A DNA stretch of 64,000 nt, from assembly GCF_000758755.1 (NCBI RefSeq), contig NZ_JRMV01000272.1, forward strand, positions 186,001 through 250,000, written 5' to 3'. Positions 3,004 to 62,033 of the stretch are shown here, piece by piece; the first letter of the stretch is position 1, and each line of letters starts with the position of its first letter. The position numbers and the translations under genes are program-made. Source of the DNA: Actinomyces sp. S6-Spd3. GTDB lineage: Bacteria > Actinomycetota > Actinomycetes > Actinomycetales > Actinomycetaceae. The notes under the pieces are model-generated. The model was given only the letters and a program-made list of their open reading frames with translations, did not search any database and was not told the DNA's origin.

Positions 3004-5409
3004 CTACCTGCCTTCTGCCCGACTCGGACCGCCACCCTCAGAGCCCGCCGCACCCGTATTTTGAGCAGTCGGAGTCTGGGTCGGCTGTACCTCAGATCCC
3101 TGTGTCGACTCACTCGCCTCGGGGGTCGGAGTAGGCGTCTCTTCGGTAGGTGTAGGTGTCGTCGAAACCTGGGGGTCGGGGACCACAGGAGTAGCCGACT
3201 GGCGGGTGTACCAATCGAAGTGGAGCTTCGTCTGGTTCGCAGTCGCCTGCTTCATGTAGCGCATCCACACGGTCACCGGCCAGTCACCACCGTGGAATTG
3301 GCCAAGCCCACCGATATTCGTCAAAGAAACGGGATTGCCGTTTTCATCGAGCTGGTACATGCTCACTGCAGTGACCAGTTCAGGCGTAAAACCAACGAAC
3401 TGCGCGGTCTTTTGGTCTTCGGAGGTACCGGTCTTACCGCCCGTGTCCTGCTTGAGTGCGGCCGCGGCCTCGGCAGTACCACCCGAAGCGGTCACTGCTT
3501 CAAGCGCAGGAAGGACGGTCGACATGGTCTTGGTATCGAAAACCTGTTCCGGGTCAACGTTTGTCTTGAAGACCTTGGAACCATCGGAGTTTTGAACCTC
3601 GCGGACAATGTGCGGAGTGGTTCGCTTTCCACCCGAAGCAATCGTCGAATAGGCGTGCGCAAGGTCAATGTTGTGGGGAGCCGCAAAGCCCAAGACGTTG
3701 AGCAGCGAGTCATCCAAACCGCTCGTGTCCTCGGGGATTCCCAAGTCGATAGCAACCTTCTTCGTGGTTGCGGGGCCAACTTCCTGGTTGAGTCCAACGA
3801 AAACAGTGTTGATCGAGTTCTTCGTCGCGTTCACCAGGTTCTGACGGCCCCAAGACACACCAGAATCGTTGCTCACCGCACGCGACATTCCACTAAAGGT
3901 CTTGGGCGAGGAGCCATCGTAAACGTCGTAGATCGAACCCCCCTGCTCGGCGTGAGCAACCAGGGCGAAAGGCTTGAAGGTTGAACCGGCAGCCATGATG
4001 TCTTGCGTTGCCGCATTTTGCTGGCGCGTGAGGTAATCCTTGCCGCCGTACTCTGCGACGATTTCGCCGGTAGCGGGATCCAATGACGTCAAAGCCACGT
4101 GCATGGAATCTTCATTCCATCCGCGCACCGTGTACATGTACTCTGCAGCGGCAACAGCCTGATCCTGCTTGTCCTTATCAATCGTGGAAATAATGCGGTA
4201 TCCGCCGGTCGCCAGCTGGTCTGCCGTGAAGCCTTCTGCCGCGAGTTCAGTCCGGACCTGCTCCATGAGATAGCCGGTCGGGCCTTCCATCGTCGGACCA
4301 CCCAAGGTATCGGGATCGATGGTCTTTGGGAACTCGGCGGCGTTTGCGTCCGCCTGCGAAATCCAACCATCCTCAACCATCAGGTTGATGACGCGCTGCC
4401 AACGCGAGCGTGCTTTCTCTTCATCGACTGCCGGATCCCACGCGGAAGGAGCGGGGATGATCCCAGCGATCATTGCGGCCTCGGAAAGGGTGAGATCCTT
4501 TGCTTCGTGGCCGAAATACGCCTGAGATGCGGCTTCGATACCGTAGGCACCGCGACCAAAGTAAATGGTGTTGAGGTAGTTGCCAATGATCTCGTCCTTG
4601 GTCTGCTCACGATTGATCTTGAGAGCAAGGATCGCTTCCTTGGCTTTACCCACATAACCGGTCGTTTCACCGACGTAGTAGCGCTCAACATACTGCTGGG
4701 TCAGGGTCGACGCACCCTGGCGCGCCCCGCCCCTAATATTGTTGACCAGCGCGCGACCGATGCCTTTGAGATCGACACCCGAATTCGTGTAGAAGGTGCG
4801 ATCCTCCGAGGCAACCACGGCATGTGAGACATAGTCAGGCAGGGTACTGGAATCGATGATCTTCCTATTCACCTGCGACATCCGGCCCATTTCGGTGGTG
4901 CCATCGGCGTAGTAGACGGTCGTCGTCTGCGCAAGAGCAACCTGATCCGCCTGCGGAATCTTCAACGAGGCGTAGGCAATGAGGAAGGTACCAAAGCCGG
5001 CAATAATGAGGCCGAGGAAGGTGTAGAAGACTCCTCGTGCAATCCGTGCTGCGAGGCTACGCTTCTTTTTCCCCTTGGCCGGCCCCTTCTTCTTTCCGCC
5101 GCCCTTGCCGGACGCTGCCGTGCGCGAGCTTGCCGGACGCGTCGACCCCGTGCGCGAGGTACTCCCCGACGAGGCCGCGCGAGTGCTTGCGCGCCGACTT
5201 CCGCTTGAGCTGGCTGCTGCCCCACTCGAGGAGCCGCGAGAAACTCGCGCAACCGCTGAAGTGCGCTTAGGTGCAGAAGAAGCAGGTGTCTGGGGGATGG
5301 TTCCCTCGCCTTCACGACGGGCCTGCTGCGCAAGTCGACGTCGAGTCGCCTCGGCTCGCGAGGGAAGGGCGCGACGTCCCTGATCGTCGTTTGCTTGTGA
5401 AGGTGCCAC
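3004..5409 (-). CDS. ponA: Class A penicillin-binding protein (transglycosylase/transpeptidase)
   Basis: Bifunctional peptidoglycan synthase that polymerises glycan strands and cross-links the peptides. The protein has 801 residues. Residues 1-120 are a Ser/Arg/Ala/Lys-rich cytoplasmic tail, then one membrane helix (about 122-149). The GT51 transglycosylase domain follows, with EDRTFY near 200 and GASTLTQQ. The transpeptidase domain has STFK near 473, SIN near 530 and KTGTS near 655. The end is a Pro/Thr/Glu-rich extracellular tail. The start is a GTG after GAAAGGCTGG. It is convergent with the ribosomal operon. The unusually long basic N-terminal tail is typical of actinobacterial PBP1 and may carry regulatory sites (inference). 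Confidence 0.95.
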   Translation of the reverse strand: MAPSQANDDQGRRALPSRAEATRRRLAQQARREGEGTIPQTPASSAPKRTSAVARVSRGSSSGAAASSSGSRRASTRAASSGSTSRTGSTRPASSRTAASGKGGGKKKGPAKGKKKRSLAARIARGVFYTFLGLIIAGFGTFLIAYASLKIPQADQVALAQTTTVYYADGTTEMGRMSQVNRKIIDSSTLPDYVSHAVVASEDRTFYTNSGVDLKGIGRALVNNIRGGARQGASTLTQQYVERYYVGETTGYVGKAKEAILALKINREQTKDEIIGNYLNTIYFGRGAYGIEAASQAYFGHEAKDLTLSEAAMIAGIIPAPSAWDPAVDEEKARSRWQRVINLMVEDGWISQADANAAEFPKTIDPDTLGGPTMEGPTGYLMEQVRTELAAEGFTADQLATGGYRIISTIDKDKQDQAVAAAEYMYTVRGWNEDSMHVALTSLDPATGEIVAEYGGKDYLTRQQNAATQDIMAAGSTFKPFALVAHAEQGGSIYDVYDGSSPKTFSGMSRAVSNDSGVSWGRQNLVNATKNSINTVFVGLNQEVGPATTKKVAIDLGIPEDTSGLDDSLLNVLGFAAPHNIDLAHAYSTIASGGKRTTPHIVREVQNSDGSKVFKTNVDPEQVFDTKTMSTVLPALEAVTASGGTAEAAAALKQDTGGKTGTSEDQKTAQFVGFTPELVTAVSMYQLDENGNPVSLTNIGGLGQFHGGDWPVTVWMRYMKQATANQTKLHFDWYTRQSATPVVPDPQVSTTPTPTEETPTPTPEASESTQGSEVQPTQTPTAQNTGAAGSEGGGPSRAEGR

Positions 5410-51949: not shown

Positions 51950-54412
51950 TCAGTGCGCGCGACGCAGCCTCATGGAGTTGAGGACAACGCACACCGAGGA
52001 CATGGCCATCGCCGCGGAAGCGAGCATCGGGTTGAGAAGCCCGAAGATCGCTAGCGGAATCATGATGACGTTGTAGAAGAACGCCCAGAAGAGGTTCTCT
52101 TTGATGACCTTGAGGGTCGCACGCGAAATACGAATCGCGGCGGCAGCCATCGTGGGATCTGAGCTCACTAGCGTCATATCTGCGACGGCGATCGCGCTAT
52201 CCGCGCCCGAACCCATGGCAATACCCAAACCCTGAGTCGAGGCCTGTGCCAGAGCAGCCGCGTCATTCACGCCATCGCCCACCATGGCTACCTGGTGGCC
52301 TTCTTCTTGAAGGCGCATCACGGCATCGCGCTTATCTGCGGGAAGAACTCCTGCAATAACCGAGTCAATCCCCACCTGCGAGGCAACAAAACGTGCTGCA
52401 GATTCGTGATCACCAGTGAGCAAGGTCGGAGTAATCCCCAAGGCCTTGAGCTGGGCAATCGCATCCTTCGATGACTCTTTCACCGTGTCACGCACAACGA
52501 AAGCACCCAGAAGTACGCCATCGAGGTGCTCGGGAAGTTCACGCGTTTGTGGAGTGAGAGTTGCGGCAGGTGCTTGAGCGGAAGCAAGCCGACGCGAACG
52601 AACCTGCGGCTCGTAGCCCGCTGCCTTGACGACCTCTTCAAGCTCAGCGTCACTGTAATCGTGCTTGAGGGTAATTCGAGCACTCTCAGTTGCCAGGTTA
52701 ACCTGCGCATGAACGCCATCGAGCTTGCCCAGCTTGCGCTCAACCCTGCGGACACAGGAGGCACAGGTCATGCCGCCCACTGCCATGTCGACGATGATTC
52801 CGCCGTCCTCGTCCTCATCTGCGGGTTGTGAAGCCTGCGTCGAGGCCGTATCACCGGCGGAGGAAGTTTCCTGCCAGCCCTCAACGCGCGCACTGGCCAC
52901 GACGGTCGCTCCCGTGGCCTCGGCCTCGGAAATGGCGGAAAGTGCGGACGGGGGAAGGGGAATACCCAGCTCACGCAACCAGCTCACGCGGCCGGCCAGG
53001 AGAAGCGCACCGTCCTCGCCAAGCGCGGAAACCCCAAGTCCGGGGTGGTTGCGCAGCTCGCGAACCGGGTGCGAGGAAAGATCGCGCTCGCGGGCGGCGG
53101 CGGTCAGCGCACGGGCGATGGGGTGCTCCGAGGCCGACTCCAGCGAGGCGGTCACGCTCAGTGCGTCCTCGCTGGACTGGGAATCAGGGGAATTTGCGCT
53201 TCCGTCGGGAAGGATGACGGACTCCAATGACATCGTGCCCTTAGTCAAAGTGCCGGTCTTATCAAGGAGGATTGTGTCGATACTGCGCGTACGCTCAAGG
53301 ACCTCGGCGGAAGAAATGAGGATACCCATCTGCGCGGCCTTACCTGAACCAACAAGGAGGGCGGTCGGAGTGGCCAGACCAAGCGCGCAGGGGCAGGCAA
53401 CAACCAGCACGGCAACCGCAGCAGTGATTGCGCTTTGAACGCCAGATCCGGCAAGGAGCCAGCCCGCCAAAGTCAGTAGGGAAAGCGCAATGATCGTCGG
53501 AACGAAAACCGAAGAAATACGATCCGCAAGACGTTGGACGGGGGCCTTGGTTGCCTGGGCCTCAGTGATCATCTGGCCAATGTGCGCCAGCTGGGTCCCA
53601 GAGCCAACGGCGGTTGCGCGGACGATCAAGGCACCCGAGGTGTTGAGGGTTCCACCGGTCACCGCACTGCCGGGGGATACTTCGCGAGGAAGAGATTCGC
53701 CCGTCATCAGCGAGGTATCCAGCGCGCTGGTGCCCTCTTCGACGATGCCGTCGGTGGCGATCTTGTCTCCCGGGCGCACCTGGAAGCGGTCGCCCACGGC
53801 AAGTTCCGAGGCCGCAATGGTGCGGTAGGTGCGCTCGCTGCCGCTTCCTTCAACGAGGATTGCGTCCTTCGCTCCGAGTTCGAGAAGGGAGCGCAGGGCA
53901 TCCCCGGAGTGGTAACGGGTGCGTGCTTCCATCAGGCGACCGGCAAGGAGGAAAGTGACGATCGCGCAGGCGCCCTCGAAGTAGATTTCCGCGTGCGTTG
54001 CGTGGCTGCGCGCGGGGATCAGTGACATGTGCATGCGCATGCCAAGCATCCCTGCACCACCAAAAACGAGGGCGTACCACGACCATAGGCTCGATGCGAT
54101 CACGCCGAGGGAGACCAGGGTATCCATGGTGGAAGAGCCGTGGCGGCCCGCCTGGAAGGCAGCGCGGTGGAAGGGGGCCGCACCCCAGATCACGACGGGC
54201 AGTGAGGCGAAGGCAACGACCCACTGCCAGCCCGAAAACTGGAGGGCAGGAACCATTGACAGGCCCAGAACGATGACGGTGAAGGGGAGAGTCACAAGGA
54301 AGCGGTTGCGCAGGTCCGCGGCGCGGCGTAGCAGTCCGTCCCCCAAGTGTTCACTTTCAGTTTCAGTTGATGCGCGGTGAGTTTCGGTAGTCATTATGAG
54401 CGATTCTGTCAT
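51950..54412 (-). CDS. copA: Copper-exporting P1B ATPase with an internal HMA domain
   Basis: Copper-type P-type ATPase, 820 residues from the ATG at 54412 (a second ATG at 54394 is possible). There is no N-terminal metal-binding domain: membrane helices begin near residue 35. TGES is near 236, CPC near 338, DKTGTLT near 381, SEHPIARAL near 426, LLTGDH near 662 and GDGVND near 709. An HMA domain with GMTCASC lies at about 538-606, inside the cytoplasmic loop. It falls between the ASARVEG strand and the DGVLLGAFVVRDTVKESS strand, where relatives have only a short turn. The distance from HP to TGD is thus about 235 residues, against about 110 normally. It belongs to the csoR-copZ-copA set. Confidence 0.92.
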   Translation of the reverse strand: MTESLIMTTETHRASTETESEHLGDGLLRRAADLRNRFLVTLPFTVIVLGLSMVPALQFSGWQWVVAFASLPVVIWGAAPFHRAAFQAGRHGSSTMDTLVSLGVIASSLWSWYALVFGGAGMLGMRMHMSLIPARSHATHAEIYFEGACAIVTFLLAGRLMEARTRYHSGDALRSLLELGAKDAILVEGSGSERTYRTIAASELAVGDRFQVRPGDKIATDGIVEEGTSALDTSLMTGESLPREVSPGSAVTGGTLNTSGALIVRATAVGSGTQLAHIGQMITEAQATKAPVQRLADRISSVFVPTIIALSLLTLAGWLLAGSGVQSAITAAVAVLVVACPCALGLATPTALLVGSGKAAQMGILISSAEVLERTRSIDTILLDKTGTLTKGTMSLESVILPDGSANSPDSQSSEDALSVTASLESASEHPIARALTAAARERDLSSHPVRELRNHPGLGVSALGEDGALLLAGRVSWLRELGIPLPPSALSAISEAEATGATVVASARVEGWQETSSAGDTASTQASQPADEDEDGGIIVDMAVGGMTCASCVRRVERKLGKLDGVHAQVNLATESARITLKHDYSDAELEEVVKAAGYEPQVRSRRLASAQAPAATLTPQTRELPEHLDGVLLGAFVVRDTVKESSKDAIAQLKALGITPTLLTGDHESAARFVASQVGIDSVIAGVLPADKRDAVMRLQEEGHQVAMVGDGVNDAAALAQASTQGLGIAMGSGADSAIAVADMTLVSSDPTMAAAAIRISRATLKVIKENLFWAFFYNVIMIPLAIFGLLNPMLASAAMAMSSVCVVLNSMRLRRAH

Positions 54413-54467
54413 GTGTATTTGGGATATCCGGGGGCACTCGTGTGCGGTGCCCCCGGTTGGTTAAGGA

Positions 54468-54713
54468 TCAGAAGTCGCGGGCGATTCCGACCAGTTCGAA
54501 GCCGGCCTCGGAGACAGCGTCGCGCAGGGCGTTGTCGTCGAGTTCGGTGTTGGTGACGACGGTGGCCTTCGAGGTTGCGCCGGAGTTGAGGATGACCTCG
54601 ACGTCAAGAACGCCGGGAACCTCCTTGAGTTCTTCGGTAACCGATGCGACGCAGTGTCCGCAGGTCATTCCGTTGATGGAGAGCTCAACAGTGCGATCAA
54701 TTTCCTGTGCCAT
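54468..54713 (-). CDS. copZ: Copper chaperone CopZ
   Basis: Single heavy-metal-associated domain of 81 residues. The Cu(I) site is GMTCGHC near residues 15-21 and the usual ferredoxin-like fold follows. AAAGAAAGG precedes the ATG. It lies 55 bases before copA and just after csoR. It passes copper to CopA, either to its internal HMA domain or directly to the membrane site. Confidence 0.93.
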   Translation of the reverse strand: MAQEIDRTVELSINGMTCGHCVASVTEELKEVPGVLDVEVILNSGATSKATVVTNTELDDNALRDAVSEAGFELVGIARDF

Positions 54714-54764: not shown

Positions 54765-55049
54765 TCAGGACTTCACCAGTCGCGCGATTGCCTTTGTGGC
54801 TTCTTGGATCTTTTCGCGTCCTTCTTCCTCGCTGTGTTGGGCGGCGTGAAGAACGCAGTGGTTCATGTGGTCTTCAAGGAGGCCAAGTGCGACGGAGTCC
54901 AGAGCGGACTGCACTGCAGAGATTTGCGTGAGGACATCAATGCAGTAGGTGTCCTCTGCAACCATGCGTTGCAGGCCCCTGAGCTGGCCTTCGATTCTGC
55001 GCAGTCGCTTGAGGTAGTGCTCGGTTTCTTCGGTGTATCCGTGAGCCAT
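54765..55049 (-). CDS. csoR: Copper-sensing repressor CsoR
   Basis: Four-helix repressor that releases DNA when it binds Cu(I). It has 94 residues from the ATG at 55049, preceded by AAGGAGG. The ligands are Cys36, His61 and Cys65, in the same numbering as Mycobacterium tuberculosis CsoR, which supports this start over an in-frame start at 55100. It lies 22 bases from the operator at 55074-55091 and heads the csoR-copZ-copA set. Confidence 0.94.
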   Translation of the reverse strand: MAHGYTEETEHYLKRLRRIEGQLRGLQRMVAEDTYCIDVLTQISAVQSALDSVALGLLEDHMNHCVLHAAQHSEEEGREKIQEATKAIARLVKS

Positions 55050-55073: not shown

Positions 55074-55091
55074 TATACCCCCGGGGGGTAT
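55074..55091. promoter_or_regulatory. CsoR operator
   Basis: ATACCCCCGGGGGGTAT in TATACCCCCGGGGGGTATG, the G-tract inverted repeat bound by CsoR proteins, 25 bases upstream of csoR. It implies autoregulation of the csoR-copZ-copA set. Confidence 0.88.
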
Positions 55092-55202: not shown

Positions 55203-56459
55203 TTATGCGCGCCGACGCGTCGTAGCAACGGTGGCCACACCTGCGAGGGCGAGCAGGCCGCCCAGCGGAAGGACGAAGTCAGCTGCGCCCGTACGTGCCA
55301 GAGGGCTCTTCGGGTTCTCAGAGGGAGCCGCGGCGGGGATCGACGGAGAAGAAGTTGCACCCGGAGTGGGCGAAGACGTCTGCTTGACGGTCGGGGCCCA
55401 CTTCGTGTTGTAGGTGACGCCACCGCAGGCGGACTGGGTGCGAGTCATGCCCGCGTTTGCCTTCCAATCCCACTGGATATCAGCGGTGTCGACAACAGTC
55501 TTTGCCGGGCGAGGCAAGTCAGTGACGGGAGCAGATCCGATCGCACCTTCTTGTGTGTATTCCATTGCGGTGATCTCCGCGGGAAGCGCATGTGCCGCAT
55601 CATCGGAGGAGTAGGTGACCGTGAGTGAGGGTTGCTGCTTGAGCTCGATGGTGACAGGGGCACCCACACCGTTGGTGAAGTTCACGGGGCGCATGCCAGC
55701 GAGGAAAGGAACGCCGGCAAGGGCGGGAATATCCAAGCTACCGGTGACGCTGGGAGAGGTTGCCTGAATCGATGAGCTTGCCGAGGCATTCATACGCGCT
55801 TGAGAAACTGTCAGGCTTCCTTCGAGGCTTGGGAAGTAGACCTTGTTGGGGCGCATGGAAGCATCTTCCAAGGCGCCGGCAGTGGTTCCATCGACCCAAT
55901 TTCCGCTGGCATCTTGGTGCATGAGGCGGTAGGTCGCAGAGAAGGTTCCATTGACGACCGAAACACTCTGGACGCGCATGGCCTTTGAGAAAGCCTCGCC
56001 AGTTGCGGCATTGGCCTTCTCGAATTGCTTCTGTACTGCCTCGACCGTGTAAGCGGAAGTATCGATATCGACATCATTCGTGTCAACAGTCATGCTGGTC
56101 GTCCACTCACCAGTGATGACCAAACGATTGAAAGCAGCGGCATTCGTGAGGCGGCCATAGGTAGCCATGTCTTCGTAATTCGTCCACACATTGGTCATAT
56201 CGAGAACGCCCTGGAAGCCAATAGCGTAGCTGTCCTTGGGAGAAGCTCCACGGCAGACAAGGGCGGCAGGCTGTGCGGGATCAACATCGGCGGGCAGAGT
56301 CACGATGTCGCTTCCGGGAGTGTAGACCTCACCCGAGACCGAAATCGGGATATCAGTAGATGCCTGTGAACTGTGGAAACTGCCGCCGCCGACAAGAATC
56401 GCACCGGCGAGTACGGGAACACTGCACAGTGCGAATACGCGATATGACGAACGCTTCAT
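55203..56459 (-). CDS. Cell-wall-anchored surface protein with LARTG sorting signal
   Basis: The 418-residue protein starts with a basic signal peptide (KRSSYRVFALCSVPVLAGAILVGGG). The C-terminal sorting signal is LARTG, then a hydrophobic helix and RRR, recognised by a sortase. LARTG instead of LPxTG is a variant. Before it comes a Pro/Ser/Thr-rich spacer (SSPTPGATSSPSIPAAAPS). The middle has no domain I recognise; a single Cys pair (VCRG and SACGG) may form a disulfide. The start at 56459 was taken because the residues upstream of it are not signal-like. No sortase gene lies in this window. Confidence 0.85.
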   Translation of the reverse strand: MKRSSYRVFALCSVPVLAGAILVGGGSFHSSQASTDIPISVSGEVYTPGSDIVTLPADVDPAQPAALVCRGASPKDSYAIGFQGVLDMTNVWTNYEDMATYGRLTNAAAFNRLVITGEWTTSMTVDTNDVDIDTSAYTVEAVQKQFEKANAATGEAFSKAMRVQSVSVVNGTFSATYRLMHQDASGNWVDGTTAGALEDASMRPNKVYFPSLEGSLTVSQARMNASASSSIQATSPSVTGSLDIPALAGVPFLAGMRPVNFTNGVGAPVTIELKQQPSLTVTYSSDDAAHALPAEITAMEYTQEGAIGSAPVTDLPRPAKTVVDTADIQWDWKANAGMTRTQSACGGVTYNTKWAPTVKQTSSPTPGATSSPSIPAAAPSENPKSPLARTGAADFVLPLGGLLALAGVATVATTRRRA

Positions 56460-56620
56460 GGAGGTCTTCTTTCTACGGGCTGCCAAATTTCGCGGAAAAG
56501 CGCGAAACATTCTGGAAAATTCTAACAGTCGATACGAGTATGAATCCAGTAGCGTAACCTCAAACTATCCCCACCTGCACACATGCGGGTTTAGGCTATC
56601 GTGAAGGGAAGGAGGGACTC

Positions 56621-58555
56621 ATGAAAACGCGACGCTATCGCAACTACTACGCACGCAGGCGTGCCCCGCACTCCCTCTCCTCCTTCTACCTACGCGCAAA
56701 ACTGATCCCACTTGCCCCCAAGCTCCTTTCAGCGCTCGCGGTTGGTGCGGCCTCGGCAATGGGATTTCTCCCCACGGATATCCGCAGCCGGCTGCGCATG
56801 CAATCTGACCGCCTCGGCGAAGAAGTATCGGAGCAATCTCAATCGATCTTCTTCCGCGAACCCGGACTTGATGTTCTTTTCGTACGTGTGCTCGCCTCAA
56901 TCGCCGGAACAGCCGGTGCCATCGTTCACGCGGCAGCCGCATTCGATGCGATCGTGGGATGGGATCGAAGCGGGAAGCTCCAGCGCCTCGCTCAAGTCAC
57001 ACCACGCAATGGCTATGAGGCGCTGATGGCAGGGATGCTCATAGCGGGAACATCCCTTGGACAAATGACGGGTGGAGCCGCGCACGCGGACAAGTACTTT
57101 GACTCTGAAATGGGGTCGAATATCATCGAATATCCCGGACACCCCAAGTCCTCGGCCCATCGCCTGTGGGCTCCGCGCTCCCTTCAGGATATGGCTGCGG
57201 ACATTGATGACCTGTACTGGGCGGGAACGTACGGGCAATCGATCAAAATCACCAGGGTCGGCAAAGATGAGCAACGGCGCTGGTTGGTGTCGATCCCGGG
57301 GACAAACCACTTTGATACGCCATCGACCCCTAACCCCGCGGATACGGAAACCAACATCCGCGAAGCTTTGGGGCTGAGCTCATCCATGCGAATGGGCATC
57401 ATTCGCGCTCTTCACCAGGCAATGAGTGAAGACGGCGTTGATCCATCGGACTACGCAAGCGAGCCCATTATCATTGTTGCCCACTCGCAAGGCGGCCTCA
57501 TTGCAGTCAATCTGGGAAGCTTGCCCCCAGAAGATGTCGGGGTCAATGTCCAGGGGATTTTAGGGCTCGGATCGCCGGGACACCGGGCATGTCTGCGTTC
57601 CGATGTCGTCATGGTGGATGTTGCACACGATCAAGATGTCGTCCCATCGACTGATGGAGCTGGCGCACGTATCCGCGATCACCGGGTAATGGTTGGTCGG
57701 AACCTCAATCAACCGCGCATGCAACCGCTGTACTATGCGCACTCCTCGTCGACCTACACCGAAACGGTTGGCCGTTTGGAGCGCAGGTCAGAGGTGACGC
57801 GATGGGACCGCGTGGGACAGGCAATCCGCGCACTGCAAGAAATGTTGCCCCATGATGGCGAACCCACGCGCGTTCGTATCTATGACATTTGGCAAGAACT
57901 CGATGACCCGCACGGAAGTGTCTGGGCAAGGGTTAATGTCCTTGAATCTACTCAATCGCAGGACACCGCAACTGATGGTGACAACAATTCTCACGGGGGG
58001 GAACTGATGGCGCAGAATCGTTCAATTGCGCGAATCCTTGGGATTGTCCAGCAACGAGCAGAGCAGATTTCACTCCCTCGCGTATCCAACCGGCTCGGCC
58101 TTGCCGCTTTGGGCGTGGCAAGCCTCGGGGTGGGGGCAGCACTCACTCGCTTGCGTCCGACGGATCGAGGCGGGCGATCTGAGCGTTTCCAAGCCTTGAT
58201 TGAAGATACGCTTGAACAAAGTGCGCAGCCATGGGTGTGCACAAGTTGCCAGGTTCAGGTCAACGAAGGTTTTGGCAAACCGACCATGGTGAGCTTTTCG
58301 ATCAACATGGAAGCAAAGCAGCCTATAGATGATGATCGCGTTGAATTTGCCCGAAAGCTCCTCGAGGCCGCGGTGCGCAGCGTGTGGAAAAACCCCGAAA
58401 TTGCACCAATTGGCATCCAAGGACGCATGAGCGTCAACGGCGAAGACACAGTCAATATGCAGGACCTCGGCTACTCTGCGCTCCAAGTACGCCCCGAAGA
58501 ACTCTTCGAACGACTCGGAGCCCCGGCTATCGATCGAGGATGGACACCCGCCTGA
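56621..58555 (+). CDS. Alpha/beta hydrolase-domain protein with C-terminal extension
   Basis: Unknown 644-residue protein. The N-terminus is Arg-rich, with a hydrophobic stretch (about 35-50). The middle (about 210-400) is an alpha/beta hydrolase: SIPGTNHFDTP, nucleophile elbow VAHSQGG, Asp in HDQDVVPSTDGAG, His in YYAHSSS. The last 180 residues form a separate region. An in-frame ATG at 58007, after a run of seven G (57995-58001), could start that region alone. The pattern VP..DGGA..R..H is shared with the protein at 60417. AAGGAGGG precedes the ATG. Possibly secreted or surface lipase-like; substrate unknown. Confidence 0.75.
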   Translation: MKTRRYRNYYARRRAPHSLSSFYLRAKLIPLAPKLLSALAVGAASAMGFLPTDIRSRLRMQSDRLGEEVSEQSQSIFFREPGLDVLFVRVLASIAGTAGAIVHAAAAFDAIVGWDRSGKLQRLAQVTPRNGYEALMAGMLIAGTSLGQMTGGAAHADKYFDSEMGSNIIEYPGHPKSSAHRLWAPRSLQDMAADIDDLYWAGTYGQSIKITRVGKDEQRRWLVSIPGTNHFDTPSTPNPADTETNIREALGLSSSMRMGIIRALHQAMSEDGVDPSDYASEPIIIVAHSQGGLIAVNLGSLPPEDVGVNVQGILGLGSPGHRACLRSDVVMVDVAHDQDVVPSTDGAGARIRDHRVMVGRNLNQPRMQPLYYAHSSSTYTETVGRLERRSEVTRWDRVGQAIRALQEMLPHDGEPTRVRIYDIWQELDDPHGSVWARVNVLESTQSQDTATDGDNNSHGGELMAQNRSIARILGIVQQRAEQISLPRVSNRLGLAALGVASLGVGAALTRLRPTDRGGRSERFQALIEDTLEQSAQPWVCTSCQVQVNEGFGKPTMVSFSINMEAKQPIDDDRVEFARKLLEAAVRSVWKNPEIAPIGIQGRMSVNGEDTVNMQDLGYSALQVRPEELFERLGAPAIDRGWTPA

Positions 58556-60189: not shown

Positions 60190-60420
60190 ATGTGGTTCAT
60201 TACGGTGTGCCAGTCACTGAAGGTGATTGAAGACAATTGCGTGGCAATCAGCGAAGAACTGCGTGCTCATTCTTTTGATTCGTGGACGGGTCAGGGAAGC
60301 GAAGGGGCGCGCGCAGAAATTGAGCAGATTAGCAACGACTGTCGGATGTGGGCGGCGCTGGCAATCGAAGCGCGCGACCTAGCCGAAATTGAGAGCGCGA
60401 CGTTGGGAGGTCAGACATGA
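60190..60420 (+). CDS. WXG100-like small protein
   Basis: A 76-residue, probably all-helical protein with a Trp-Thr-Gly turn (SFDSWTGQGSEGARAEI) between two amphipathic stretches. That is the WXG100 helix-turn-helix arrangement of type VII secretion partners. Its stop overlaps the next gene's start by four bases (ATGA). The pairing with a downstream hydrolase that itself has a WXG-like N-terminus fits a chaperone-like role, as for small WXG100 or LXG-associated proteins (inference). No EccC-type secretion gene is in the window. The ribosome binding site is weak. Confidence 0.6.
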   Translation: MWFITVCQSLKVIEDNCVAISEELRAHSFDSWTGQGSEGARAEIEQISNDCRMWAALAIEARDLAEIESATLGGQT

Positions 60421-62033
60421 GCGGGCAGTGCGTGTCATGGATGGTGGTTTCTTCGGATACAACGCGCATTGATACCGAGGCGCTTGTCGGCGACGTTCTA
60501 TTCCTGCGAAGGATTCGCGAGGCCCTTGATAGTCAGCTAGGCGCGGCGCATTCGCTCAATCAGGAGTTGTGTGCACATCAGTGTGGGGGTGTTTTGCAGC
60601 GTTTGTGTGCCCTCGGTGCACAACTGAGCGAGCAGATTGGTAGTTGTGCGGACAGGCTTGCTTACGTTGCGTCCATCCATGCCGCTGCCGAGGCCGACGC
60701 TGCTTCCTATCAGAAGACCGTGCGCAGGCTGGGTGGCAGTATGGGCGAGCTTTCGTGGGCGGGAGGATTGACAGCATCGCGAAAGATTGCAGGCGTGGGG
60801 AAATACGTTAATCCTTATGTCCCTTTCCTCTTCGCACCGCTTGGCATCTTTCATGGGATAGCAACTATCAGCGCCCACGGTCTGTCTTTTGTTCGCCAGC
60901 CATCAGATGCGTCTTTGGGGTTACGTACACAAATGGATGTTGCTGAACTATCTCGGCTGGTCAACGGGACTTCATCGCGCTCGGACGTTGAGGTCACTCG
61001 AGATGCTGCTGCACAGATGTCAACGCTGTATGCAGCAATGGGATGGTTGATGTTTGGTCGCCATTCGGGGGTGAGGATTTCAGCGCAGAACCTTCCCGAT
61101 GACGCGCCGTCTGGGCCGACAAGCCAAGTACTCTTGGGAGTTGCGCAGGGAGGGCGCCCGACGGAATATTGCGGTTCTTTCGGCGCGGTCGTCTATGCCG
61201 TTAACGCTGTAGCAGCTTATCCACCGCATACTTCCTCTCCTCAATCGCAGGTTTCGCGTCCCCAGGCGGGTTCCAAGCTGGAGAAGGTCGAAACCCCGTT
61301 GAAGGCCTCGGAGGCATTGGAACGTATCGGGCAACTTCGCTCCAGTGCAGACGAGGGACAGATTGAGATCCTTCAGCACGTGACGGTAGACAGTGATGGA
61401 AGGGAGCATCGAGCGTGGTCGGTCATGATCAGAGGGACGCAAAAGTGGGGGCCGGGCGAAGACAATCCCCAAGATATGCTGACGAATCTTCAAGCAGTTG
61501 GGCAATCCAATTCCGACCAGCTCAGGGCAGTGAAAACTACCATGGATATGGCGGGGATCAAGGCTGATGAGCCCGTTGAATTTGTGGGCCACTCTCAAGG
61601 CGGCATTATTGCTGCACAGTTGGCCGCAGATCCGCAGGTGCGCTCGCACTACCGCGTTGCCTCGGTGCTAACCGCGGGTTCGCCGGTCGCGGGATTCCAT
61701 CCCGACTCAAGTGTTCCCATGCTGAATATGGAAAACACGCGTGACATTGTCCCCGCACTTGACGGCGGAGCGAATGCTAATCGCGGCCACGCATTGACCC
61801 TGCATTTTGATAGTGAGCACTTAGAAAGAAAACAAGGGCAGGACAATCCCATTGCCGCTCACGATATTGCGACCTACACCGAAGCAATTCGAGAGTGCGA
61901 ATCGGCGGACGCGGGCCGCTATCGCAATATCGAGGACGTGCATCGCTGGGAAGAGGAAAGAAGAACTCGGCTGGGTATCACAGATGCGACGCGCACGCGT
62001 TCCTACATTTTTGATACCCGCCGAGTTTCTTAA
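60417..62033 (+). CDS. WXG/LXG-like helical domain plus alpha/beta hydrolase
   Basis: The 538-residue protein has an N-terminal helical region (about 15-110, coiled, with IGSCADRLAYVASIHAAAEADAASY) like a WXG100/LXG secretion domain. A hydrophobic stretch lies near 140-160. The C-terminal alpha/beta hydrolase (about 320-500) has nucleophile elbow VGHSQGGIIA, Asp in MENTRDIVPALDG and His in AAHDIATYTEAI. It shares the GTxxW/GTNHF region, HSQGG and VPxxDGGAN pattern with the protein at 56621. It resembles PE-PPE-type lipases. It may be exported with the small protein and act as a lipase or toxin; no immunity gene was recognised. Confidence 0.75.
   Translation: MSGQCVSWMVVSSDTTRIDTEALVGDVLFLRRIREALDSQLGAAHSLNQELCAHQCGGVLQRLCALGAQLSEQIGSCADRLAYVASIHAAAEADAASYQKTVRRLGGSMGELSWAGGLTASRKIAGVGKYVNPYVPFLFAPLGIFHGIATISAHGLSFVRQPSDASLGLRTQMDVAELSRLVNGTSSRSDVEVTRDAAAQMSTLYAAMGWLMFGRHSGVRISAQNLPDDAPSGPTSQVLLGVAQGGRPTEYCGSFGAVVYAVNAVAAYPPHTSSPQSQVSRPQAGSKLEKVETPLKASEALERIGQLRSSADEGQIEILQHVTVDSDGREHRAWSVMIRGTQKWGPGEDNPQDMLTNLQAVGQSNSDQLRAVKTTMDMAGIKADEPVEFVGHSQGGIIAAQLAADPQVRSHYRVASVLTAGSPVAGFHPDSSVPMLNMENTRDIVPALDGGANANRGHALTLHFDSEHLERKQGQDNPIAAHDIATYTEAIRECESADAGRYRNIEDVHRWEEERRTRLGITDATRTRSYIFDTRRVS

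Follow-up and report, generated by a model that had tools for sequence, protein, structure and literature searches.

A copper-exporting P-type ATPase that carries its HMA metal-binding domain inside the N domain represents a real, conserved and apparently undescribed layout, which has so far been seen in Actinomycetaceae alone. What is new is the order of the domains in a well-known pump; the system as such is of a familiar kind. The gene lies in the window, by which we mean the whole stretch of 64,000 nucleotides of Actinomyces sp. S6-Spd3 DNA that was analysed, and by its sequence it encodes a P1B-1 Cu(I) exporter that is complete in all other respects, with a single HMA placed between long, variable linkers in the last N-domain hairpin. 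An N-terminal HMA is a typical, not a defining, feature of P1B-1 CopA.

Domain order and operon of the window copA gene

The features of the gene and of its immediate neighbours are as follows.

51950..54412, minus strand: copA, P1B-1 copper-exporting P-type ATPase with the HMA inside the N domain, 820 aa (TIGR01511, Pfam, 3rfu alignment, AlphaFold2)
53249..53263, minus strand: DKTGT phosphorylation motif, residues 384-388 (sequence; Asp384 invariant in 60/60 internal-type loci)
52883..53227, minus strand: N domain to its second-last strand, residues 396-510, lower bound approximate (AlphaFold2, 3rfu alignment)
52799..52882, minus strand: N-side linker, residues 511-538, acidic, disordered (pLDDT <50 at 517-537)
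52592..52798, minus strand: internal HMA metal-binding domain, residues 539-607, ferredoxin-like
52754..52765, minus strand: CASC motif, Cys550 and Cys553 (Cys pair invariant in 60/60)
52520..52591, minus strand: C-side linker, residues 608-631, Ala/Thr/Pro-rich, mostly disordered (pLDDT <50 at 607-623)
52481..52519, minus strand: closing strand of the N domain and entry to the P domain, residues 632-644 (AlphaFold2; aligns with LpCopA 541 onward)
54468..54713, minus strand: copZ, stand-alone HMA copper chaperone, 81 aa, GMTCGHC (HMA 54.1 bits)
54765..55049, minus strand: csoR, copper-sensing repressor (PF02583, 108.9 bits)
55076..55090, no strand: candidate CsoR-type operator TACCCCCCGGGGGTA, upstream of csoR (palindrome, no mismatch to the consensus)

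The copA gene is a single uninterrupted frame of 820 codons. Its product scores 481.7 bits against the curated model of copper-translocating P-type ATPases, above the cut-off of 397, and contains the P-type ATPase motifs TGE, DKTGT, HP and GDGxND. Pfam domains follow each other in the order E1-E2_ATPase (residues 193-361), HMA (PF00403, 544-601, 46.5 bits against a cut-off of 24.8) and the best Hydrolase stretch (614-724), with the HMA located after DKTGT and before GDGVND and the remaining P domain. The alignment with Legionella CopA (3rfu) ends at GASVM (Lp 537) and restarts at VDGKTVALL (Lp 541), and the HMA insert therefore corresponds to the last hairpin of the N domain. Consistently, an AlphaFold2 model of the full-length protein places the HMA elements (539-607) between a strand at 503-510 and another at 632-644, the HMA itself being modelled with low confidence (pLDDT ~65, one model). 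Neither Pfam nor inspection of the sequence revealed an HMA ahead of the first membrane helix or of residue 539. The original prediction, which had assigned the domain to the catalytic region of a protein with a bare N-terminus, is thus borne out by Pfam, by the 3rfu alignment and by AlphaFold2; domain annotation and structure prediction agree on an HMA inside the N domain, flanked by linkers of low pLDDT. The two linkers read QPADEDEDGG and ASAQAPAATLT as it had proposed, and positions 52500-52830, where it had put the feature, span the HMA and both linkers of a gene on the minus strand.

By its sequence, csoR-copZ-copA is a standard-looking copper-export operon: a CsoR repressor, a GC-rich palindromic operator and a copZ adjoining copA are all present. 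The operator search returned one site, on both strands, where a mean of 0.04 matches was expected by chance; its assignment to the CsoR type follows the consensus of such operators. Throughout the source genome only two HMA matches were found at E <= 0.001, namely the internal HMA of copA and copZ. Between copZ and copA, a perfect 10-base inverted repeat (CCGGGGGCAC/GTGCCCCCGG, 54428-54456), with no T run after it, was noticed by eye; the CopZ:CopA ratio might be set by this repeat. Further along the window, a 435-aa protein (55203-56510, minus strand) ends in LARTG, a hydrophobic tail and a basic end, by eye a putative sortase-type anchor, and has no Pfam match. An opposite-strand gene is flanked by two long proteins with an AHSQGG/GHSQGG hydrolase-like motif (56621-58555 and 60417-62033, both plus strand), the first with no Pfam match and the second with only matches below the cut-off.

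Spread and constraint of the internal HMA

The internal HMA is not a feature of a single odd protein. The original prediction had envisaged a survey for such domains, and one match spanning HMA and P domain was found in 62 of the 213 genomes of the family, belonging to 9 of 36 genera (hand count among the matches listed), the weakest of these matches having an E value of 9e-54. In the genus of the window the gene is present in 34 of 35 genomes by protein search, and 33 of the 35 have the spanning match; the two without it are G001, in which a run of N falls inside the gene (L174), and G030, a 560-contig draft with only weaker P-type ATPase matches. Two of the nine genera are mixed, with the spanning match in 2/4 genomes of g24 and 5/6 genomes of g30.

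Among 98 loci with a whole CopA gene, the HMA is internal in 60 (59 distinct proteins, the window's own gene being L003; DKTGT and GDGxND served to select these loci) and N-terminal in 38. Four internal-type loci whose frame is broken by a gap or contig end (L029, L030, L174, L175) were left out of the 60. The N-terminal set comprises loci from 37 genomes, chosen for genus coverage among the 151 of the family that lack a spanning match, together with the named locus L066; a 39th N-terminal case, L216, stands outside the 98, its N domain being missing. By CxxC motif, no locus among the 98 has an internal and an N-terminal HMA together. Each of the 60 internal-type proteins has one HMA, as do 36 of the 38 N-terminal ones; L180 and L201 have two, both N-terminal.

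These counts bear on the most trivial explanation, namely that the window protein is the product of an assembly error, a frameshift or a fusion artefact. The source is indeed a draft genome of 281 contigs, but the gene is one open frame, and a further 58 distinct proteins share its domain order, including 13 encoded by genomes with a single listed contig. We have rejected this explanation and consider it next to impossible.

The layout was sought more widely by sampling around the family. No spanning of HMA and P domain was seen among the matches listed for 361 genomes of the order outside the family (to E ~6e-38), for 393 others of the class (cut-off 1e-42) or for 345 others of the phylum (cut-off 1e-40), in overlapping samples with 7 to 14 first-look candidates scored per genome; divergent cases could escape. 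The best 80 of 575 named loci contain 65 CopA-type frames. A single one of these, L063 from Actinomyces marseillensis (Actinomycetaceae), has an internal HMA, and it is identical to L006; in 62 frames an HMA precedes CPC, L087 having an additional C-terminal one, and the two without HMA are both frames that start at the first base of their contig. On plasmids, none of 3911 matching records has a single stretch that matches 80% of the HMA-to-P-domain query, and the first three records listed comprise two of N-terminal type and one with the HMA in a separate frame. The Methylobacterium nodulans plasmid pMNOD02 (L227) encodes a CopA-like ATPase without an HMA motif and, just downstream, a separate frame with a GMTCASC HMA motif.

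Are the displaced domain and its pump conserved? The HMA cysteine pair is invariant across the 60 internal-type loci, as are T237, G238 and E239 of TGE, D384, H430 of HP (P431 in 59/60), C340 and C342 of CPC, Y780 and N781 of YN, M802, S805 and S806 of MxxSS, and the entry residues M96, E162 and D297. A role of CPC, YN, MxxSS and the entry Met/Glu/Asp at the metal sites is given in PMC9433437. The linkers behave differently: over the same loci they range from 19 to 80 residues on the N side and from 17 to 79 on the C side, with majority-residue identities of 0.25 and 0.29; the HMA reaches 0.69, the N domain 0.50 and the remaining parts 0.73-0.83. A Trp at the linker start occurs in only 25/60.

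Pairwise Nei-Gojobori comparisons within nine sets of close relatives (two to nine members each), in several of which dS exceeds 1.5 so that the ratios are rough, gave a dN/dS of 0.01-0.09 for the HMA in eight sets, the ninth not being computable. The corresponding values are 0.02-0.09 ahead of DKTGT and from the P domain to the end, and 0.09-0.24 in the N domain. Those of the linkers, where computable, run from 0.07 to 0.75; low values for the C-side linker, 0.07 in the window's own clade and 0.12 in g24, blur the contrast between HMA and linkers. These codon comparisons indicate that the internal HMA is under strong purifying selection, with a constraint like that of the core, and that the linkers mostly drift. 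The original prediction had regarded conservation of the cysteine pair and of the linkers as a sign of function: the invariant pair and the selection on the HMA support the former half of this idea, whereas the linkers are not conserved.

Source of the domain and number of moves

Where did the internal HMA come from? Internal and N-terminal CopA HMAs share the motif GMTCASC (51/60 and 33/38, respectively) and a common sequence similar to RVE.KL.K..GV.A.VNLATE. A CopZ-like frame lies beside the internal-type copA in 40/60 loci and was not found in the limited flanks of the other 20; the neighbours have C-x-H-C in 36/40, of which 27 read GMTCGHC. In a search of PDB chains the top rows were chains with several HMAs, and among one-domain chains the Bacillus CopA domain 1jww (38.4 bits) scored above CopZ 1k0v (29.0). 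In genus g24, the internal HMAs of L170 and L171 have, besides each other, the N-terminal HMA of L202 as their nearest relative (0.77 and 0.73), the next-best likeness being 0.61 and 0.57. We infer that the internal HMA is an N-terminal CopA HMA that was relocated within the gene. The domain could conceivably have arisen instead by insertion of the neighbouring copZ, itself an HMA protein that adjoins copA; given the different motif class (GMTCASC versus C-x-H-C) and the nearest relatives among the sequences compared, all of them CopA HMAs, this origin is disfavoured and in our view very improbable.

The place of the HMA does not appear to have changed only once. All trees are of a quick kind, with an unstable backbone and starred branches that are less trustworthy when long rows are present. 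In a core-only tree of 87 rows, from which HMA and linkers as well as the near-copies L004, L063 and L145 were left out, internal placement requires three changes, two of them forced by starred branches, and the internal L170 and L171 join the N-terminal L202 at full support. Adding L216 and leaving out eight near-copies (83 rows) altered the backbone and gave six changes, again two forced; here L216, likewise of g24 and N-terminal in type, falls outside L170/L171/L202 with a support of 92, not starred. A tree of the HMA only (70 columns) resolves little, the internal rows corresponding to seven changes, two forced. A single clade of all internal rows is rejected (lnL lower by 158.6, AU p 0.00015). 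A clade of the internal rows plus L202 is not rejected (AU p 0.57), its lnL exceeding that of the free tree by 5.7, and one inward move followed by one return is therefore as good an account as two inward moves. By these comparisons the place of the HMA appears to have changed at least twice within the family, genus g24 having both layouts, and the N-terminal HMA of L202 may be a return from the internal site.

Two genes of g24 deserve a description of their own. The hairpin of L202 contains no HMA, and in its stead a loop of repeats that also occur downstream of its N-terminal HMA. Both stretches (L202, genome G167, 2718-2825 and 4326-4463) are in-frame copies of a dispersed palindromic repeat, whose 16-base core has 69 matches in G167 (<=2 mismatches), while each of the four further genomes searched has a single one. 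The repeats could have helped the HMA to move, or could merely show that both sites tolerate inserts. L216 is a 749-aa frame with an N-terminal HMA and no N domain, in which a short, unrelated-looking stretch leads from DKTGT to the P domain; it is the sole CopA-like match of its genome (G166) at E <= 1e-40 and may be a broken gene, an assembly error or an odd pump.

The repeat-derived loop of L202, which lacks an HMA, implies that the hairpin site accepts inserts. Together with the wide range of linker lengths, it is in keeping with a relocation that was simply tolerated, whereby the hairpin tip takes inserts and the HMA is kept for binding copper anywhere on the protein, without regulatory coupling. 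The core-like constraint on the HMA and the presence of exactly one HMA by motif in 96/98 loci (the exceptions being the two N-terminal pairs) speak against such indifference, and we hold this account to be distinctly unlikely.

Possible roles of an HMA tethered in the N domain

Among described pumps, the layout appears to have no characterised precedent. A literature search conducted mainly outside subscription journals found, among titles and abstract openings, no description of an HMA inside the N domain, in agreement with the original prediction. Bacterial P1B-1 CopA proteins with an N-terminal HMA (AfCopA, 7r0g; LpCopA, 3rfu/4bbj) have one linker, whereas the window protein has two, with the HMA in the terminal hairpin of the N domain. 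AfCopA (PMC9433437) and L087 resemble it in having an HMA on the CopA core elsewhere than at the N-terminus; however, that domain is an extra one at the C-terminus, after the P domain, whereas the HMA of the window protein is its sole one and lies inside the N domain. The HMAs of ATP7A/B and plant HMA7 are N-terminal, up to six in a row, with none described in the N domain in PMC10973460.

How might the internal HMA act? The retention of the copper-binding cysteines and of the pump motifs leads us to read the protein as a probably working pump with its usual metal-binding domain re-tethered. The original prediction envisaged that copper binding could directly affect the movement of the ATP domain. 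In its simplest mechanical form, such direct straining or moving is unlikely, because the HMA hangs on long, poorly conserved linkers modelled with low confidence; with such flexible linkers, coupling would have to come via docking of the HMA on another domain. We envision a scenario whereby the internal HMA takes up Cu(I) via CASC, probably from CopZ, and whereby its copper load decides whether it docks on or leaves the cytosolic headpiece, at the A/N interface or the membrane platform. Turnover would be throttled when copper is scarce, and the pump would be freed when copper is plentiful. The HMA would thus act through docking and not through direct strain on the N domain, and would require a tether near the headpiece, not one particular chain end. 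Related proposals exist: it has been suggested that the metal-binding region of LpCopA senses copper and lets go of an inhibitory tail lodged between the A and N domains (PMC11970713), and cycle-dependent docking of HMAs at the membrane platform or the A/P interface has been proposed for plant and human pumps (PMC10973460). The brake of LpCopA is, however, a tail ahead of its metal-binding core.

Alternatively, the internal HMA may serve copper delivery, receiving Cu(I) from CopZ and bringing it, by virtue of its long tethers, to the membrane entry formed by M96, E162 and D297. The entry residues and CxxC are invariant in 60/60, a copZ-like frame adjoins copA in 40/60 internal-type loci, and docking of HMAs at the MB' platform has been described for other pumps (PMC10973460, PMC11970713). 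Yet the shortest linkers (19 and 17 residues) may not reach the membrane, no copZ-like frame is near in 20/60 loci (limited flanks), and CopZ has been proposed to pass copper straight to the membrane core of AfCopA (PMC9433437). Because docking would seem to need only a tether near the headpiece, our preferred reading is a docking and undocking copper sensor; delivery, which we judge unlikely, is its first rival. An ordinary metal-binding domain re-tethered in the N domain and acting as a copper sensor on the headpiece is, in our estimate, a somewhat probable reading, of which the relocation and the docking are the parts that we infer.

A bolder form of the docking sensor treats the HMA as a regulatory module whose function does not depend on its position, able to shift within its own gene from the N-terminus to the N-domain hairpin or back, and working from the hairpin as a copper-gated clamp on the catalytic headpiece: the apo-HMA, docked at the A/N interface, would block domain closure, and copper would release it. 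The place would have changed at least two times in one family, each time from one of these two sites to the other, since the tip of the hairpin would be near the docking place of N-terminal domains. We regard this form as possible, if rather doubtful.

The task of the metal-binding domains of copper ATPases, be it copper delivery, copper sensing or restraint of the pump, has been called enigmatic or poorly characterised in recent structural work (PMC10973460 and PMC11970713). In dozens of species of the Actinomycetaceae the same kind of domain is found elsewhere along the chain, and one genus has close relatives with either place. Such natural pairs offer a test of whether attachment ahead of the first membrane helix is required or a mere tether near the headpiece suffices. 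The terminal N-domain hairpin can hold a whole folded domain with the conserved motifs of the pump intact. The internal layout may separate the job of the metal-binding domain from its place in the chain.
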